From Clostridiales bacterium (GTDB lineage Bacteria; Bacillota; Clostridia; Lachnospirales; Lachnospiraceae), in assembly GCA_023663185.1 (NCBI GenBank), contig JAMPHY010000011.1, forward strand, positions 1 to 64,000: a DNA stretch of 64,000 nt, read 5' to 3'. The notes under the pieces are model-generated. The model saw nothing but the letters and a program-made list of their open reading frames with translations. It did no database searches and was not told the origin of the DNA. Positions within the stretch are counted from its first letter, which is position 1. Every line of letters starts with the position of its first letter. The translations under genes and the position numbers were made by a program. Below are positions 22,044-63,442 of the stretch, piece after piece.

Positions 22044-23207
22044 ATGTTTAAATATTATTGTTTAAATCCCATCTCAAAAGTGGGAACCGAGAAATTCAGC
22101 GCACAGTATGAGAAGACGGAAGATATAAACGAGGCGGAAGGAATCTTAGTAAGAAGTGCGTCCATGCATGAAATGGAAATGCCTAAGAACCTTCTCGCCG
22201 TCGCAAGAGCAGGCGCGGGCGTTAATAATATTCCGATAGATAAGTGCGCAGAGCAGGGAATCGTCGTGTTCAATACTCCGGGTGCTAATGCGAACGGTGT
22301 CAAAGAGCTGGTAATCGCCGGTATGCTGTTAGCGTCAAGAGACGTCGTAGGCGGCATTAAGTGGGTGTCCGATAATAAAGACGATGCGGACATAGCAAAG
22401 ACGGCGGAGAAAGCTAAGAAAAACTTCGCAGGAACCGAAGTTCAGGATAAAAAGCTGGGAATTATCGGGCTGGGAGCTATTGGCGTAAAAGTTGCCAACG
22501 TAGCGAAACATCTTGGCATGGAAGTCTATGGATATGATCCGTATGTTTCGGTAGATGCGGCATGGAATTTAAGCCGTGACGTAAAGCATGTGCTGAATGT
22601 TGACGAGATATACGAAAGCTGCGATATCATTACCATTCATGTGCCGCTTATGGACGCGACTAAGGGCATGATAAATAAGGACGCTATCGATAAAATGAAA
22701 GACGGAGTAATCCTGCTTAATTTTGCAAGAGACCTTCTTGTAGACGAGAAAGCTGTACTTGATGGCATAAAAGCCGGAAAGATACGCAAATATGTAACAG
22801 ACTTCCCTAACGCTACGACGGTAGGACAGGAAGGTTGTATCGTAATTCCACATCTGGGAGCGTCTACGGAGGAATCCGAAGATAACTGTGCGAAAATGGC
22901 GGTTAAACAGATGATGGATTACCTCGAAAACGGCAATATCATCAACAGTGTCAACTATCCGAAATGCGATATGGGGGTATGCGACCAAGCGGGACGTATT
23001 GCGATTTTCCATAAGAATATTGCCAATATGATTACGAAATTTACGGCATGCTTCGGAGATAACAGTATCAATATCACCAATATGATGAATAAATCCAAAG
23101 GGGAAGTTGCTTATACCATGATGGATATCGAAGTTCCCGCGTCTGAGGAGATAATCAAGAAGCTTGCGTCTATTGAAGGCGTATTTCGCGTGAGGGTTAT
23201 TAAATAA
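22044..23207 (+). CDS. serA: D-3-phosphoglycerate dehydrogenase
   Basis: Oxidises 3-phosphoglycerate to 3-phosphohydroxypyruvate with NAD+, the first step of serine synthesis. 387 residues, the short form with a C-terminal ACT domain (about 320-387, GRIAIFHKNIANMITKFTACFG). The nucleotide-binding site is LGIIGLGAIGVKVANVA, and the substrate and catalytic region contains VARAGAGVNNIP and HLGASTEESEDNCA. CAGGAAAA precedes the ATG. The ACT domain suggests serine feedback, though this cannot be confirmed from sequence. Co-directional with serC, 90 bases apart. Confidence 0.96.
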   Translation: MFKYYCLNPISKVGTEKFSAQYEKTEDINEAEGILVRSASMHEMEMPKNLLAVARAGAGVNNIPIDKCAEQGIVVFNTPGANANGVKELVIAGMLLASRDVVGGIKWVSDNKDDADIAKTAEKAKKNFAGTEVQDKKLGIIGLGAIGVKVANVAKHLGMEVYGYDPYVSVDAAWNLSRDVKHVLNVDEIYESCDIITIHVPLMDATKGMINKDAIDKMKDGVILLNFARDLLVDEKAVLDGIKAGKIRKYVTDFPNATTVGQEGCIVIPHLGASTEESEDNCAKMAVKQMMDYLENGNIINSVNYPKCDMGVCDQAGRIAIFHKNIANMITKFTACFGDNSINITNMMNKSKGEVAYTMMDIEVPASEEIIKKLASIEGVFRVRVIK

Positions 23208-23229
23208 GTTAATATGTGATTATAGATAT

Positions 23230-23377
23230 GGAATGGGCTTATATGCTTTCTCTTGAGGTCCTTGTAAAACGCCGGTACTTAGTGAAAAAGCCTGTTTTAT
23301 GGCTTTTGAACTTAGTACCGCTGCGATTTTACACGGAGCGAGAGCGTGCCTCAAGAGAAAGCATATAAGCCCATTCC
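23230..23377. repeat. Long palindromic intergenic element, copy 1
   Basis: A 148-base element with perfect 29-base arms (23230-23258 and 23349-23377). Inside, GTAAAACGCCGGTAC-type sequence pairs with GTACCGCTGCGATTTTAC, with small bulges, and AAAAGCC/GGCTTTT caps the structure. It lies between convergent serA and an 84-residue gene. The core recurs in inverted orientation at 63304-63442, where the outer arms have a different sequence but are again complementary. Confidence 0.9.
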
Positions 23378-23405
23378 GCTAAACAACTATGAATATTAAC
23401 TATTT

Positions 23406-23660
23406 TCATGCCAAACCGCTGTCACGCAATTCTGATTGAAACTGTTCCTCCGCTTTAACGGCAACCTCGCTTGCCAAATCCATATAGAGAATAAACACAT
23501 CTTCAAGCGACATTCCTTTTTCTTGCGCAATTTCTTCCATAATGGGCTTTAATGTTTCAAGCTGGGAAGAAATCGGCGTTTTCTGCGGGTCGATATCGCC
23601 CAATGTTTTTTCGGCATAATCATTGATTCTATGAAGAATTTTTGCATTTTCCGCTGTCAT
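23406..23660 (-). CDS. Small conserved-looking protein of unknown function
   Basis: 84 residues, acidic and predicted largely helical; no signal peptide or membrane segment. The minus-strand ATG is preceded by GGAAAAGGAAG, a good ribosome site, which supports it as a real gene. It contains EKTLGDIDPQKTPISSQLETLKPIMEEIAQEKGMSLEDVF. No domain was recognised. Convergent with serA and separated from it by the palindromic element. Confidence 0.6.
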   Translation of the reverse strand: MTAENAKILHRINDYAEKTLGDIDPQKTPISSQLETLKPIMEEIAQEKGMSLEDVFILYMDLASEVAVKAEEQFQSELRDSGLA

Positions 23661-31005: not shown

Positions 31006-31527
31006 ATGTACTATTCGGAGATAAAAGAATATGATATCGCCAATGGACCGGGAGTAAGGGTTACATTGTTCGTGAGCGGCTGTACGCACCACTGTAAAGG
31101 CTGCTTCAACGAGATGACATGGGATTTCCAATATGGCAGACCGTTCATGGCGGAAGATATTGAGAGAATTTTAAAGCTTATGGAGCCGTCATATATATCA
31201 GGACTCACCCTGCTTGGCGGCGAACCGATGGAATATGTAAACGAACAGGGGCTTTTGCCCCTGCTTCGTGCTGTAAAAGAAAAGTATCCGCATAAGTCGG
31301 TATGGTGCTATACCGGTTATCTGTTTGATAAGGACATTCTTAACGATTTTAGCCATAAGTGGCAGGAGACGAAAGAAATGCTTTCTTATCTCGATATCAT
31401 TGTAGACGGTGAGTTCATCGAAGAGCAAAAAGACATAAGCCTTCAGTTTAGGGGTTCTTCCAATCAGAGAATTATCGATGTCAAAAAATCCATGCAATCA
31501 GACGAAATTGTCCTGTGGGAAGGATAA
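31006..31527 (+). CDS. nrdG: Anaerobic ribonucleotide reductase activase (radical SAM)
   Basis: Generates the glycyl radical on NrdD with a 4Fe-4S cluster and S-adenosylmethionine. 173 residues. The radical-SAM motif is CTHHCKGC (CxxxCxxC, about 25-32), with GPGVRVTLFVSGC before it and LTLLGGEPM after it. AGGAGACGAC precedes the ATG. Translationally close to nrdD. Confidence 0.97.
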   Translation: MYYSEIKEYDIANGPGVRVTLFVSGCTHHCKGCFNEMTWDFQYGRPFMAEDIERILKLMEPSYISGLTLLGGEPMEYVNEQGLLPLLRAVKEKYPHKSVWCYTGYLFDKDILNDFSHKWQETKEMLSYLDIIVDGEFIEEQKDISLQFRGSSNQRIIDVKKSMQSDEIVLWEG

Positions 31528-31532
31528 TAAAA

Positions 31533-32777
31533 ATGAAGAAAAAAATACTTATAATAATTCTTACATTATGCGTTGTTCTGATAATGACAGCCTGCGGCAA
31601 AAATACAGACACAGCAGAAGCGGACAGGTTCTATGAAGCGGGGCGCAAAAGCCTTTACGGACTGGACGGAACGCAGATTAACCTTGAGGACGCCTATACG
31701 AATTTCATAAAGTCGCAGGAGCTTGGAAATACTGATGCGAATTTCTATCTCGGTTTATTGGCTGACGAATATTACAATTATCCCATACAGAATTATAAGC
31801 AGGCAAGAGCATATTATGAGCAATGCGGGGACAATCCACATGCGCAGATTGTTTTAGGGCTTTTATACTATTGGGGAAATGGCGTAGATGAAGACAAGGA
31901 AAAGGGTAAAGAACTTTTTCAGTCAGCGATAGAACAGGGTGTGACTGAGGGATATTATGGGTATGCCGTTATCATGCAATATAATGATTATGAAACTGCC
32001 TTAGAATATTATAATAAAGTAATAGAAGAAGGCACAGAGCAGTTTTATATTGCAAGGGCAATGTGTTCTATCGGCGATATGTATGAGTGGGACAGGAGAT
32101 TGGGACGTGATTACGAAAAGGCAGCCGAGTGGTACATAAAGGCAGCGGATTTGGGTGATAAGTACGCAATGCGGGAATTAGGCTCTATGTATGCGTATGG
32201 CAAAGGCGTAGAACAGGACGGAGCAAAAGCAATCGAATGGTATATCAAAGCAGCGGATATAGGCGATACGGGCGCACTGTATTCTATTGGCGATATGTAT
32301 ATGTTTGGCGGAAGCGTGGAGCAGGATTATGATAAAGCAATCGAATGGTACACCAAAGCGGCTGATTTAGGCGATATGGACGCAATGCGCAGACTTGCTA
32401 CTTTATATAAGTATGGCAATATATATGGGTATGGCGAAGAAGAAATACAGCCGGATTATGATAAGGCAGTCGAATGGTATACAAAATTAGCTGATTTAGG
32501 TGATATGAATGCAATGCGTACTCTTGGCGGTATATATAGAGAAGGCGTTGGAGTGGAGCAGGACGGAGAAAAAGCCCTCGAATGGTATGCCAAAGCAGCG
32601 GATTTAAGTGATACGCGCGCAATGTGCATGATTGCTTATATGTATGATGATGGCATTGGAGTGGAGCAAGATTATGAAAAAGCGCTCGAATGGTATACAA
32701 AGGCGGCAAATTTAGGTGATATTGATTCGAAGATTATACTTGGAACTAAGTATAGGTATGGAGAAGGAGTAGAGTAG
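31533..32777 (+). CDS. Sel1-repeat lipoprotein, truncated by an in-frame amber codon
   Basis: 414 residues as read. Type II signal peptide with lipobox LIMTAC, then a conserved N-terminal part (FYEAGRKSLYGLDGTQINLEDAY) and Sel1-like (TPR-related) repeats of about 36 residues. At least six units end in EWYxKAADLGD, joined by MYxYGxGVEQD. Sel1 repeats form a solenoid for protein-protein binding; here it would be exposed on the outer face of the membrane. The frame is cut at TAG (32775-32777), where sister repeats read GVEQD (CAG), and continues in frame for 69 codons. Starts 6 bases after nrdG; GGAAGG is the ribosome site. Paralogue of 33401-35149. Confidence 0.82.
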   Translation: MKKKILIIILTLCVVLIMTACGKNTDTAEADRFYEAGRKSLYGLDGTQINLEDAYTNFIKSQELGNTDANFYLGLLADEYYNYPIQNYKQARAYYEQCGDNPHAQIVLGLLYYWGNGVDEDKEKGKELFQSAIEQGVTEGYYGYAVIMQYNDYETALEYYNKVIEEGTEQFYIARAMCSIGDMYEWDRRLGRDYEKAAEWYIKAADLGDKYAMRELGSMYAYGKGVEQDGAKAIEWYIKAADIGDTGALYSIGDMYMFGGSVEQDYDKAIEWYTKAADLGDMDAMRRLATLYKYGNIYGYGEEEIQPDYDKAVEWYTKLADLGDMNAMRTLGGIYREGVGVEQDGEKALEWYAKAADLSDTRAMCMIAYMYDDGIGVEQDYEKALEWYTKAANLGDIDSKIILGTKYRYGEGVE

Positions 32778-32984
32778 GACGGCGAAAAAGCTATCGAATG
32801 GTATATGGATGCGTTAGATAAAGGCTCTAATATTAGATATGTATGGAATTATATTGCCGATATGTATAGATATGGCGAAGGAGTGGAGCAGGATTACGAT
32901 AAGGCAATAGAATATTACACAAAAGCTGCGAACTTAGGTGATACGTCTGCGAAGGAGACTCTTAAGGAGTTGCAGGGACAGTAA
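32778..32984 (+). pseudogene. Severed C-terminus of the first Sel1 lipoprotein
   Basis: In-frame continuation after the TAG: DGEKAIEWYMDAL, then MYRYGEGVEQDYDKAIEYYTKAANLGD, ending in KETLKELQGQ with TAA at 32982-32984. The ending matches that of the intact paralogue (AKEALAELQGQ), so the original gene ran to 32984. The break is a single C-to-T change (CAG to TAG) or a sequencing error. It has no start or ribosome site of its own. Confidence 0.85.
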
Positions 32985-33039
32985 GCGGAATATAATCTAT
33001 AAAGTCGTATAGAGAGATAATTATGCATAGAATAAAAGC

Positions 33040-33068
33040 TTTACACTTTTTACATACTTTGTTATGAT
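33040..33068 (+). promoter_or_regulatory. Promoter of the first small module protein
   Basis: TTTACA (33040-33045), a 17-base spacer and TATGAT (33063-33068). The gene starts at 33111 with AGGTGAT upstream, so it can be expressed separately from the Sel1 gene. Confidence 0.55.
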
Positions 33069-33110
33069 TAAGTTGTAACAACTGACAGAGATGAAAGGGT
33101 AGGTGATTGT

Positions 33111-33296
33111 ATGACTGAGGGCGAAATGATAAAAATAACAGTCGAAGAGTTTGCAAGAATTCAAAAATATATGCTTTTAATAGAAAATAAAGAGTCAGCA
33201 GCATATAAAGAGATTAAAGGTAGGTATATTGAACTGAAAGTAATACTCACACAATCCGGCGTTAATCTCACAGAACTTGATATAGTAAAAGCATAA
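33111..33296 (+). CDS. Small module protein, copy 1
   Basis: 61 residues, helical, no membrane segment. Clearly related to the 64-residue protein at 35501-35695: both share EEFARIQKYM-L / EDFAKVQKYMML, a Y-x-LK-IL stretch and GVNLTELD / GVNLSELD. Each copy lies directly downstream of a Sel1-repeat lipoprotein, so they travel as a module. It could be a cytoplasmic partner, immunity or regulatory protein; no family was recognised. AGGTGAT is 5 bases before the ATG. Confidence 0.75.
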   Translation: MTEGEMIKITVEEFARIQKYMLLIENKESAAYKEIKGRYIELKVILTQSGVNLTELDIVKA

Positions 33297-33305
33297 TAAC
33301 CAAAT

Positions 33306-33349
33306 AGGTGTAAAGTCTTTATTAAATTATTAAGTCTTTACGCCTTTTT
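33306..33349 (+). terminator. Terminator of module copy 1
   Basis: AGGTGTAAAG (33306-33315) pairs with CTTTACGCCT (33336-33345), followed by TTTTT to 33349. A related GTAAAG/CTTTAC stem ends module copy 2, where a long hairpin lies inside it. Confidence 0.75.
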
Positions 33350-33400
33350 AATTTAGAAAATTCTGCTGCTAAAAACAAATACAGCAAAAGGATAAGAAAA

Positions 33401-35149
33401 ATGAAGAAAAAATTACTTATGATAATACTTCAGTTATGCGTCGTTATAGCAATGGCGGCATGCGTTAGAAATGCAGACACATCGGAAGTAGATAAAACAA
33501 CTGAAACGGAAGAAAGCGCGGATAAAAGCGCGGACGCTGCTGCACAGGTGCAAGAGAACGCAACGGTATGGGTTGCAGAATCGGACGAGTATTACGAGGC
33601 AGGACGCAGGAGTCTTTATGGATTGGACGGAACGCAGATTAACCTAGAGGACGCCTATACGAATTTTATAAAGTCGCAGGAGCTTGGAAATAGTGATGCG
33701 AATTTCTATCTTGGTCTGCTTGCCGATGACTGGTATGATTATCCTAAACGGAATTATAAGCAGGCGAAGGCGTATTATGAGCAATGCGGTGACAACCCTT
33801 ATGCGCAGGTTGCCTTAGGGTTATTATACTATTTTGGGTGCGGCGTAGAGCAAGACACGGAAAAGGGTAAAGCGATTTTTCAGTCAGTAGCAGACCTATG
33901 TATAGCTGAGGGCTATTATGGATTGGCTGCTGACGCATATGATAGGAGAGATTATGAAACTGCGTTAGAATATTATAATAAAGTAGTGGCGGAAGGCGCA
34001 GAGCAGTTTTATATTGCAAAAGCAATGCATTCTATTGGTATGATGTATTGGAATGGTCGTGTAGCGGGTGGTAACGAAAAAGCAGTCGAATGGTATGCAA
34101 AAGCGGCAGATTTGGGTAATGTGTCAGCAATGTTGGACTTGGGTTATTCATATGAGTGGGGCAAAGGAGTACAACAGGACGGCGAAAAAGCAATCGAATG
34201 GTATACAAAAGCGGCGGATTTAGGCGATATATATGGACTGACTTCTATTGGCTATATGTATTATGCGGGCGTTGGAGTTAAGCAGGACGGCGAAAAAGCA
34301 GCCGAATGGTATGCAAAAGCGGCAAATTTAGGTTATGAGGACGCAATATTTATAGTTGCCGATATGTATAGGCGTGGCGATGGAGTAGAGCAGGACGGCG
34401 AAAAGGCAATCGAATGGTACACCAAATTAGTAGAGTCAGGTGATACAGGCGCGATGCGCGATATTGCCGAAATGTATCGGTATGGCGAAGGAGTGGGGAA
34501 AGACGGGGCAAAAGCCGTGGAATGGTACACAAAAGCGGCGGATTTAGATGATGCGGACGCAATGTATGAGCTTGGACACATGTACAGGTATGGCGAAGGC
34601 GTGGAGCAGGACGGCGAAAAGGCAATCGAATGGTATACCAAAACAGCGGTTTATTATAATACCGCGCTGTATTATATCGCCGATATATATTGGCATGGCG
34701 ACGGAGTGGAGCAAGACTATGATAAAGCCATTGAATTGTACACAAAAGCATCAGATTTAGCTGGTACCACACATGGATTGGTTTGGATTGGCAATATGTA
34801 TAGGGACGGCGACGGAGTTAAGCAGGACGGCGAAAAAGCAATCGAATGGTATGCTAAAGCGGCGGATTTAGGCGATGAGGACGCAATGATTTGTATTGGC
34901 GATATATATAGATACGGCACAGGGTTAGAACCAGACGGCGTAAAAGTGATTGAATGGTACGCTAAAGCGGCAGATGAAGGTTATACGGAGCCAATGATTA
35001 AGATTGGCGAGATGTATAGGTACGGCGACGGAGTGGAGCGGGACACAGAAAAGGCGATTGAATGGTATACAAAAGCCTTAGATATGGATGCTGTATCCGG
35101 ATACGCAGATGTGGCGAAGGAGGCTCTTGCGGAGCTGCAGGGGCAGTAA
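33401..35149 (+). CDS. Sel1-repeat lipoprotein, intact paralogue
   Basis: 582 residues. Type II signal peptide with lipobox AMAAC, an acidic Ser/Ala/Thr linker (about 24-60), then the same N-terminal block as the upstream paralogue (YYEAGRRSLYGLDGTQINLEDAYTNFIKSQELGNSDANFYLGLLAD). About ten Sel1 units of 36 residues follow (EWYTKAADLGD ... MYRYGEGVEQDGEKAI), ending in LAELQGQ. It has more units than the upstream copy, suggesting repeat expansion. Likely an extracytoplasmic scaffold for protein binding. AAAAGGATAAG is the ribosome site. The nearly identical DNA of the repeats makes assembly errors and recombination likely in this region. Confidence 0.87.
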   Translation: MKKKLLMIILQLCVVIAMAACVRNADTSEVDKTTETEESADKSADAAAQVQENATVWVAESDEYYEAGRRSLYGLDGTQINLEDAYTNFIKSQELGNSDANFYLGLLADDWYDYPKRNYKQAKAYYEQCGDNPYAQVALGLLYYFGCGVEQDTEKGKAIFQSVADLCIAEGYYGLAADAYDRRDYETALEYYNKVVAEGAEQFYIAKAMHSIGMMYWNGRVAGGNEKAVEWYAKAADLGNVSAMLDLGYSYEWGKGVQQDGEKAIEWYTKAADLGDIYGLTSIGYMYYAGVGVKQDGEKAAEWYAKAANLGYEDAIFIVADMYRRGDGVEQDGEKAIEWYTKLVESGDTGAMRDIAEMYRYGEGVGKDGAKAVEWYTKAADLDDADAMYELGHMYRYGEGVEQDGEKAIEWYTKTAVYYNTALYYIADIYWHGDGVEQDYDKAIELYTKASDLAGTTHGLVWIGNMYRDGDGVKQDGEKAIEWYAKAADLGDEDAMICIGDIYRYGTGLEPDGVKVIEWYAKAADEGYTEPMIKIGEMYRYGDGVERDTEKAIEWYTKALDMDAVSGYADVAKEALAELQGQ

Positions 35150-60477: not shown

Positions 60478-60655
60478 GTAAAGACAGGCAACGGTGAGTG
60501 TCTGTCAGGTGTTGAGATAAGATGTTGCGTCAGCGAGCCGCGTCTTATTGAGCCTTTGAAGGGTTGTATGTAGACCTCAAGCTGACTTTATGCGTGCAGG
60601 ACGCGCAGACAGAAAACATTCAGAAGAGCTCTGTTTTATACAGGGCTTTTCTTTA
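60478..60655 (+). ncRNA. Structured ~178-nt RNA ending in a terminator
   Basis: Between a consensus promoter and the PBECR4 gene lies RNA with a consistent multi-helix fold. TGTCT/AGACA (60499-60503 with 60607-60611) closes it. GTCAG/CTGAC (60504-60508, 60582-60586) is stacked inside and holds two arms: ATAAGATG with CGCGTCTTAT (60517-60549) and TTGAAGG with CCTCAA (about 60557-60580). Then comes GCGT/ACGC (60592-60604). A terminator (AAGAGCTCTG with CAGGGCTTTT, then TTTCTTT) ends it near 60655. It may be a riboswitch or an independent ncRNA. Size and setting recall the raiA RNA class of Firmicutes, but this is from memory only. Confidence 0.6.
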
Positions 60656-60671
60656 TAATACGGAGGATTTT

Positions 60672-61253
60672 ATGGATAAATTACAGGAACGTGCATTGAC
60701 ATTTAACGAACTAATGAAATATCAGTATGACATCAAGCTTGGCAAAAAAGGTAAATTATATGAGTTTACTATCGACTTTCAACCGAGTGATTTTTTTCAT
60801 TTGATTGGGCTGCAAAAACTCATAGACTTGCGGTTTCTCAAACGCTCTGCTGAACATATCTTTAATGAGTGCTTAAAAGGAAATATTACATATTCAATGA
60901 TTGCGGCAAGCCAGTATTTTGATGAACTTGGTTATAGATTTGAATATTTCAATCAGCTTGAAAACATATTAGACAGCAATAATCTTATTTTCAAATTCAA
61001 TAAAAACTCAATGCAAATCTATTCAAAGATTATAGCTGATTATATGTTAAAACATACAAGAGATGATTTAATTTTCTATTTATTCATCGAGCAAAGAAAT
61101 AAATCAAATACTCAGTTTTGTAAATCATTTTTTGAAAACAGCGTTATCGATTATTCGCGAGGTCAGACAAATTTGACCTTGCTGTATAAAGGAAAAATAA
61201 ATATCAGAACAGGCGAAAGAGAAATAAAATTTGATAGGCTTACACAGGGGTGA
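60672..61253 (+). CDS. PBECR4-type nuclease-fold protein
   Basis: 193 residues. It resembles PBECR4 proteins (phage Barnase-EndoU-ColicinE5/D-RelE-like nuclease fold): FTIDFQPSDFFHLIGLQKLIDL (about 33-54), IFNECLKGNITYSMI, and the terminal FCKSFFENSVIDYSRGQTNLTLLYKGKINI. The fold predicts RNase activity, often toxin-like or phage-associated, but activity is untested. ATG 60672 follows CGGAGG by 5 bases; the longer upstream frame passes through the structured RNA and terminator. No antitoxin gene is adjacent. Expression depends on readthrough of the terminator at about 60624-60655 or on a separate start. Confidence 0.72.
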   Translation: MDKLQERALTFNELMKYQYDIKLGKKGKLYEFTIDFQPSDFFHLIGLQKLIDLRFLKRSAEHIFNECLKGNITYSMIAASQYFDELGYRFEYFNQLENILDSNNLIFKFNKNSMQIYSKIIADYMLKHTRDDLIFYLFIEQRNKSNTQFCKSFFENSVIDYSRGQTNLTLLYKGKINIRTGEREIKFDRLTQG

Positions 61254-62049: not shown

Positions 62050-62070
62050 GTCTAAGGAGGGCATATTTTG

Positions 62071-63282
62071 ATGGAAAAAATAAAAATGACTACTCCGTTA
62101 GTTGAGATGGACGGAGATGAAATGACAAGAATACTTTGGAAAATGATTAAGGACGAGCTTCTTCTGCCTTATATCGATTTAAAGACGGAGTATTATGACC
62201 TCGGTTTAGAGCACCGTAACGAGACTGATGATAAGGTAACGGTTGAGTCTGCTGAGGCGACCAAGAAATACGGCGTGGCGGTTAAATGTGCGACTATCAC
62301 TCCCAATGCGGCAAGAATGACGGAATACAATCTGAAAGAGATGTGTAAGAGTCCGAATGGCACGATTCGTTCTATTCTGGACGGAACCGTTTTTCGTGCG
62401 CCGATTTTAGTAAAGGGCATAGTGCCTTATGTTAAGAACTGGACGAAGCCTATTACGATTGCGCGTCATGCCTACGGCGATGTATATAAGAATACGGAAA
62501 TCAAAGTAGCGGGCAAGGGAAAAGCGGAACTGGTATTTACGGCGCAAGACGGCACGCAGGTAAGAGAACTTATACATAACTTTGACGGCGCGGGAATAAT
62601 ACAGGGCATTCATAATACGGAAAAGTCCATCTCCAGCTTTGCAAGAGCCTGCTTTAGTTATGCGGTGGATACGAAACAGGATTTATGGTTTTCTACTAAG
62701 GATACCATTTCCAAGAAATATGACCATACTTTTAAGGATATTTTTCAGGAAATTTATAACGCCGAATATAAGGATAAGTTCGAGGCGCTCGGAATAGAGT
62801 ATTTCTATACCTTGATTGACGATGCGGTAGCGAGGGTAATTCGTTCTGAGGGCGGTTTTATCTGGGCGTGTAAAAACTATGACGGAGATGTTATGTCAGA
62901 TATGGTGGCGACCGCTTACGGCGACCTTTCGATGATGACCTCCGTACTGGTGTCTCCTTCGGGAGTCTATGAGTATGAGGCGGCGCACGGCACGGTTCAG
63001 CGTCATTATTATAAGCACTTAAAAGGAGAAGAGACGTCTACGAACTCGATAGCGACTATTTTTGCATGGACAGGAGCTTTGCGCAAGCGCGGGGAGTTAG
63101 ACGGCAATAAGGAGCTTATAGATTTTGCCAATAAGCTTGAGCAGGCATGTATTAAGACTGTGGAAGATGGAAAGATGACGAAGAGTTTGTCGCTGATTTC
63201 GGAGTGTAAAAATCCTGTGATACTTAATAGTCTTGATTTTATTAAGGCGATTAGGGAGACGTTGGATAGTATGCTTCATTGA
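62071..63282 (+). CDS. icd: Isocitrate dehydrogenase (NADP type)
   Basis: Decarboxylates isocitrate to 2-oxoglutarate. 403 residues, the length of the eukaryote-like homodimeric NADP form. It has [46 protein letters not shown] (phosphorylation/substrate loop), [29 protein letters not shown] (metal Asp residues) and [35 protein letters not shown] 62071 is preceded by AAGGAGG at 10 bases; a TTG one codon earlier is less likely. Downstream of, and probably co-transcribed with, the GntR regulator. Confidence 0.97.
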
Positions 63283-63303: not shown

Positions 63304-63442
63304 GCGACATGGACTCATATGCTTCATTTTGAGGCACGCTTCCGCTCCGTGTAAAATCGCAGCGGTACTAAGCTCGAAAGAACCTCGCTAAGTACCGGCG
63401 TTTTACAAGGACCTCAAAATGAAGCATATGAGTTCATGTCGC
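63304..63442. repeat. Long palindromic intergenic element, copy 2
   Basis: A 139-base element with 31-base arms (63304-63334 and 63412-63442, one G-U). The core is the reverse complement of copy 1 (23230-23377): GTAAAATCGCAGCGGTAC with GTACCGGCGTTTTAC, plus the flanking GCACGCTTCCGCTCCGT and GGACCTC words. The capping loop and outer arm sequences differ from copy 1, yet the arms still pair. It lies between convergent icd and the ABC-F gene. Confidence 0.9.

Follow-up and report, generated by a model that had tools for sequence, protein, structure and literature searches.

REPINs and the REP/BIME repeats are non-autonomous intergenic hairpins present in many copies, and for REPINs the excerpted text of PMC3116915 reports compensatory changes on both sides of the hairpin. 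BOX elements of Streptococcus pneumoniae are described, in the excerpt of PMC3049150, as structured and non-autonomous, as thought to be mobile, as built of modules that can be present or absent, and as having a likely effect on co-transcribed genes. The ERIC sequences of enterobacteria are intergenic, about 127 bp long and predicted to form a stem-loop, and their copy number varies widely between genomes (excerpts of PMC2267715 and PMC10969869). Finally, MRSC-65-2 has a long covarying stem, often occurs in dozens of copies per genome and is thought to be selfish (excerpt of PMC11109978); the same excerpt counts 250 mobile or repeat sequence candidates, and the repeat described here may be among them.

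The present repeat was met as two copies in a 64,000-nt stretch of DNA (the window) from GCA_023663185.1, contig JAMPHY010000011.1, and we file it among the mobile palindromic repeats; REPINs, BOX and ERIC would work alike in outline. It shares with REPINs and REP/BIME a non-autonomous, intergenic, many-copied hairpin; however, REPINs conserve their two REP ends and vary the spacer, whereas this repeat conserves its interior and varies its arms, and, unlike the REPIN case, no Y1 (RAYT-type) gene was matched in the richest three of the tested genus genomes that are free of mobile-gene expansion. In BOX the modules are boxA, tandem boxB and boxC; here they are optional hairpins inside the core. 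The likeness to BOX is one of organisation only. The same is true of ERIC, which belongs to other bacteria and whose excerpted descriptions mention neither a strand-specific GNRA motif nor arm divergence. MRSC-65-2 differs in having UYCCGG repeats and in spanning diverse phyla. It appears to be undescribed so far: no earlier description was found in a search of literature listings, in which PMC12306157 and PMC8632094 were covered by term. No Rfam family matched over the window copies at gathering scores and none of relevance at E≤5 in five loci; the statement of the original prediction that no named family has this core held in these comparisons and in the literature search.

Results

Two hairpins with a shared core

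The source genome (3.83 Mb; G000) and its nearest relative (G007) are the main genomes compared below. In the window, the original prediction had marked two elements with a common inverted core in opposite orientations, arms that are perfectly or nearly complementary, and arm sequences and loops that differ from one copy to the other. All of this was borne out, the element strand being plus for copy 1 and minus for copy 2. The parts of the two copies are as follows.

23208..23400, plus strand: copy 1 at its widest extent, with decayed outer ends GTTAATAT ... ATATTAAC (end-to-end inverted-repeat likeness, by eye)
23230..23258, plus strand: copy 1, 5' outer arm, 29 bases, perfect complement of 23349-23377
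23259..23282, plus strand: copy 1, conserved core, 5' strand TCCTTGTAAAACGCCGGTACTTAG
23283..23310, plus strand: copy 1, variable apical stem-loop, long type
23311..23348, plus strand: copy 1, core 3' strand, with a CT bulge at GTACCG-CT-GCG
23338..23345, plus strand: copy 1, mini-hairpin GC-GAGA-GC (GNRA tetraloop)
23349..23377, plus strand: copy 1, 3' outer arm, 29 bases
63304..63442, minus strand: copy 2, entire hairpin; the element strand is the minus strand
63412..63442, minus strand: copy 2, 5' outer arm, 31 bases
63338..63345, minus strand: copy 2, mini-hairpin GC-GGAA-GC (GNRA)
63304..63334, minus strand: copy 2, 3' outer arm, 31 bases, one mismatch against the 5' arm

Along the element strand, the 5' arm is followed by core TCCTTGTAAAACGCCGGTACTTAG, the apical loop, core CTTAGTACCGCTGCGATTTTACACGG, the mini-hairpin AGC-GNRA-GC and the 3' arm. 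The core joint has a CT bulge, and at the foot of the apical stem GA is opposite GA. Both copies fold far more stably than shuffled sequence: copy 1 has -92.5 kcal/mol where 200 shuffles give -38.1 (sd 3.8; z -14.5), and copy 2 has -80.5 where shuffles give -36.0 (sd 3.7; z -12.1). Each lies between convergent genes, copy 1 between 22044-23207(+) and an 84-aa ORF at 23406-23660(-), and copy 2 between 62068-63282(+) and an ORF from 63456 on the minus strand that encodes an ABC transporter C-terminal domain.

Three other features of the window were noted in passing. The 84-aa ORF beside copy 1 has no Pfam match, and its DNA is kept at the site in many genus genomes. A drum RNA (RF02958, 77.3 bits) at 60507-60624 (+) overlaps the start of the ORF at 60564-61253. 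Two adjoining Sel1-repeat ORFs with 108-base units occupy 31515-35149 (+); they contain 7 and 9 Pfam stretches and are 79-85% alike over parts of their length, a likeness sufficient for paralogues.

Copy number, variants and spread

The further copies anticipated in the original prediction are numerous, and their arms mostly still pair. A covariance model gave 87 matches in the source genome at E≤2.1e-6 and 111 at E≤0.1, some of the weaker ones being opposite-strand echoes; BLAST with copy 1 found at least 40 places at E≤5.3e-29 (40 of 99 candidates were scored), and a 13-base core word matched 62 times, its reversed control not at all. Every one of these 62 matches lies within a covariance-model match, so no far-apart half of the repeat, as an element-borne gene would produce, was seen by that word. 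Two of the 87 places were dropped at contig ends and five more because they lacked the core word, which left the 80 copies used below wherever that number is given. The repeat is short and non-coding, carries no gene of its own, and lies inside an ORF of over 150 aa in one of 85 placed copies. Within-genome matches reach at most 94.9%, so no very recent duplicate was present, though short-read assemblies can lose near-identical copies.

Variation within the source genome takes several forms. A second subfamily has the same core and unrelated arms (GTTGTACAATATATAC...). There are three types of apical loop, a GACCAC...GTGGTC hairpin that may be present within the 5' core strand, and an optional insert of roughly 50 bases within the 3' core strand. 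Three copies (L208, L211 and L148) have, in place of the 5' outer arm, a common left flank GTGCTAAACATGCGCCACTGGCGCATAGCACC, as if the arm had been replaced by another small hairpin repeat.

By the model, 23 of the 25 genomes of the genus carry the repeat (G008 and G013 have none), with from 1 to at least 86 scored matches each, the last figure being that of the richest genome; none of the 16 relatives from other families does, so that the repeat is present in 23 of 41 relatives overall. Lachnospiraceae are common in the gut and the rumen, and in a sample of the family 128 of 299 genomes were positive. A class-wide sample of 392 genomes yielded 13 positives, namely 12 members of the family and one other genome (E 1.8e-5). 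The exact core pattern occurs in at least 101 stretches of the genome collection; most of the 80 matches listed bear Lachnospiraceae or other Clostridia labels, Roseburia inulinivorans among them, and a few of the listed matches bear MAG labels such as Muribaculaceae and Selenomonadaceae, labels being taken as given. The pattern was absent from viral contigs. Phage or plasmid origin was considered and set aside, since neither the 50,697 phage records nor the 72,556 plasmid records gave a match at E≤1e-5.

Fold and strand preference

The fold was assessed on an alignment (A1) of 51 of 67 non-redundant cores, from which the covariance model (R1) was also built; the other 16 were left out as divergent by eye, so both alignment and model lean towards structure. 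In these 51 sequences 95.0% of cells pair, against 82.7% after shuffling, and the covariation score of 0.337 (0.114 shuffled) was reached in none of 500 shuffles; sliding the partners gave scores of 0.04 to 0.14. Changes on both sides occur in 11 of 23 pairs, including every one of the 6 pairs of the outer stem and the two pairs of the mini-hairpin. Since all cores in the alignment were found by an exact core word, the invariance of the central stem (12 pairs) is uninformative.

Several measurements distinguish one strand from the other. The tetraloop is GNRA in 50 of the 51 aligned copies, and a looser script found GNRA in 69 of 74 source-genome copies, 42 of 42 in the nearest relative and 92 of 95 others; the five misses in the source genome (TTAT, ATTC) look like mis-anchoring by the script of copies that bear modules. 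With each context counted once, isolated mismatches in the arms are G.T or T.G in 75 cases and A.C or C.A in 36 (p 2.7e-4), the ratios being 35:11 in the source genome, 37:19 in other genomes and 13:10 in the nearest relative, which is not significant alone. Folded as RNA, the element strand has the better energy of the two strands in 191 of the 219 copies (73 of 80 in the source genome, 34 of 43 in the nearest relative and 84 of 96 others, the nearest relative and some of the other loci being the same genome). The mismatch asymmetry and the folding-energy bias point to selection on one strand of the repeat in folded form, either as RNA or as ssDNA. One of the two readings offered in the original prediction was a structured-RNA terminator with compensatory change; a favoured, structured strand survives from that reading, and its terminator part does not, for reasons given below with gene position.

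Paired changes, inversions and deletions at shared sites

Thirteen sites are occupied in both the source genome and its nearest relative, and there the two arms can be compared pair by pair (two sites contributed few pairs, 6 at C54:111374 and 13 at C24:7164). Of the arm pairs, 287 are unchanged, and in 20 both sides have changed and still pair; the rest comprise 4 other double changes, 12 single changes that broke a pair, 15 that mended one, 8 others and 20 gapped pairs. With 83 changed sides in 346 pairs, and the sides assumed independent, roughly 5 double changes would be expected by chance, and pairing would be kept in about 2. Five of the 20 pairing-kept double changes are of transversion types that a single G.U step cannot bridge. 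Block exchange between copies would also yield double arm changes, and at the two sites where the core is inverted within the same flanks (C1:30471 and C11:577797) the comparison sets physically different arms against each other.

The loop type differs at 4 of the 13 shared sites; the counterpart of copy 1 itself has the short type of apical loop where the source genome has the long type. Core-less arms are also present in the source genome, for example as a perfect hairpin at C1:86793, where the nearest relative has a full element, as a hairpin with a single mismatch at C2:94872, and as a partly deleted one on C31. Inversions, centre deletions and the like are expected of long palindromes and would involve hairpin nucleases and recombination.

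Presence and absence among relatives

Each of the four source-genome copies tested is missing from the sites of relatives that aligned. The copy 1 site is occupied in the nearest relative; among 18 other relatives, 10 aligned poorly and 8 aligned on both sides of an interval of 9 to 257 bases, and the element is absent from all 8. Two of the genomes compared (G006 and G050) have 9 unaligned bases where copy 1 occupies 23208..23400. At C44:86074 seven of eight relatives aligned, and at C44:84810 five of eight, all without element. The copy at C24:5723 is present in the nearest relative and absent from 9 other relatives; one such empty counterpart (L267, in G011) carries TTATTATTCACAGTC, which is very like the outer end motif described below and may mark either a preferred target or the place that a copy left on excision.

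Of 43 copies in the nearest relative, in each of which the core was checked, 9 share a site with an intact source-genome copy and 2 with a remnant; 32 have no match on both flanks in the source-genome sequence that was compared, which included the loci of all 87 matches. Losses by centre deletion could explain part of the turnover. Empty sites in relatives and turnover, together with the inverted cores, deleted centres and differing loops of shared sites, support the other reading of the original prediction, a palindromic mobile or repair-edited DNA element. We think it probable that the repeat is a non-autonomous mobile hairpin, similar to MITEs, REPINs or BOX, that is recognised as a folded strand.

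End motifs

The leading rival to recognition of a folded strand is a classical MITE, that is, a deletion derivative of an insertion sequence whose DDE transposase reads terminal inverted repeats TTACTATTCACAG ... CTGTGAATAGTAA at the base of the hairpin. Like a MITE, the repeat is non-coding, intergenic and present in many copies, and sites in relatives lack it. Furthermore, a 13-base end motif, with 3 mismatches allowed, occurs at an almost constant distance from the core, on the left in 19 of 80 source-genome copies against 1 of 80 in a control stretch and on the right in 16 of 80 against 4 of 80; in the nearest relative the figures are 8 and 13 of 43, against 1 and 0. This motif, which resembles a terminal inverted repeat, keeps a DDE-type mover possible. 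Against a classical MITE, the two ends occur together in no more than 4 of the 80 source-genome copies and 4 of the 43 in the nearest relative, and no target-site duplication was apparent by eye at these 8, empty sites being too divergent to read; the conserved part of the repeat is its interior and not its end; and 100 of 118 arm matches and 14 inspected stretches revealed no insertion sequence that has such arms, Y1 being the only transposase searched for. We regard a classical MITE as possible and somewhat unlikely. It overlaps with the folded-strand reading if a DDE mover reads the ends, so the likelihoods that we attach to the two do not add to one.

Position relative to genes

A cis-acting RNA, whether a terminator or a 3' end stabiliser, would be kept for its effect on neighbouring genes, and its paired changes would be true compensatory evolution. 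The stable fold and the frequent location a few dozen bases or less 3' of a stop codon fit such a role, as do the ordinary-looking hairpins, judged by eye, that some relatives without the element have at the copy 1 site. However, neither window copy has a terminator-like site; there is no U-tract at either, and the flank profile of 55 source-genome copies is without a T-run. The convergent setting noted in the original prediction is correct for both window copies and fails as a general rule, being found for 12 of the 84 copies with two assigned neighbours (by mechanical ORF calls). All four gene arrangements occur: among 85 placed copies (the same mechanical calls, 2 of 87 places having been dropped at contig ends) both neighbours are antisense to the element in 43, both sense in 16, divergent in 13 and convergent in 12, and one copy lies in an ORF. 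Insertion between closely spaced co-directional genes was also seen. Relatives lack copies at the same sites, and cores are inverted at two shared ones. The terminator reading is thus not supported, and we judge a cis-acting RNA of any of these kinds improbable. Mobile hairpins also covary, so covariation alone is no proof of a cis-regulatory RNA.

When the right-hand gene is antisense, the end of the element is usually a few dozen bases or less from that gene's stop codon. The orientation bias in the source genome (43 antisense to 16 sense) compares with 22 to 21 in other genomes and, since cores invert, may partly reflect selection after insertion. A replication-strand bias was considered and rejected: GC skew is confounded with gene direction, and the picture is mixed in divergent (8:5) and convergent (6:6) contexts. 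In other genomes four copies (L042, L049, L085 and L105) stand directly 5' of a likely ribosome-binding site and ATG, in the sense direction and by eye, and may have become 5' leaders.

Y1 and reverse transcriptase genes

No mobility gene recurs beside the copies: 603 ORFs in loci of other genomes formed 7 clusters present in at least 4 loci, which by eye are ABC transporters, sensors, regulators and the like. Two kinds of enzyme encoded elsewhere were searched for by their Pfam domains. Y1 (PF01797) has no match in G000, G007 or G017, all copy-rich (assemblies 95, 96 and 86% complete); it is absent from 9 of 13 genus genomes tested and present in G005, G011, G021 and G022. RVT_1 (PF00078) has no match in G000, G007, G017, G006, G002 or G075, each with at least 11 scored element matches; these six are among 9 of 22 genomes that lack it, and the 13 that have it include the copy-rich G022, G264, G239, G312 and G531 and the copy-free G013. 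In these small samples neither enzyme tracks copy number. Copy-rich G022, which has both, is uninformative, and the exclusion rests on the genomes that lack them.

A REPIN-like element moved as ssDNA by a RAYT or other Y1 (HUH) transposase would account for a non-autonomous hairpin with strand asymmetry and with paired changes of the kind reported for REPINs (excerpt of PMC3116915); however, the lack of PF01797 contradicts it in the three copy-rich genomes unless the gene lies in missing sequence or was lost after the spread, and we think it very improbable. A retro-element, reverse-transcribed from RNA into new sites like a bacterial SINE, would suit the GNRA loops, the G.U tolerance and the folding-energy asymmetry, and is just as hard to credit, being contradicted in the six copy-rich genomes without RVT_1 unless its enzyme falls outside Pfam RVT_1, lies in missing sequence or was lost.

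Discussion

The non-autonomous mobile hairpin that we favour might work as follows. The element strand, as ssDNA or RNA, would fold into a long outer stem, a small GNRA side hairpin, a conserved core stem that bears a CT bulge, and an apical stem-loop of variable form. A protein encoded elsewhere would recognise the folded core and move the repeat into intergenic DNA, often a few bases 3' of a stop codon. Since the outer arms need only pair, their sequence drifts. Pairing would be kept partly by selection on the folded strand, with G.U tolerated, and partly by copying at the DNA level, either from arm to arm within a hairpin or cruciform or, once the palindrome has broken, from another copy. 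The two window copies most likely do no more than place a stable hairpin close to where neighbouring transcripts end.

A bolder version, which we advance tentatively and consider unlikely, is that this is a family-wide structured mobile repeat of Lachnospiraceae with an undescribed mechanism, independent of Y1 and reverse transcriptase, in which a protein reads an RNA-like branched hairpin (the GNRA side loop, the GA/GA apical joint and the CT bulge) and arm-to-arm copying keeps the arms complementary. If this version is true, it is the shape of the element that is inherited and not its sequence. The sites shared by two genomes are a natural record of palindrome evolution, with arms changed in pairs, inverted cores, differing loops and deleted centres, and the mover of the repeat is a concrete target for study.
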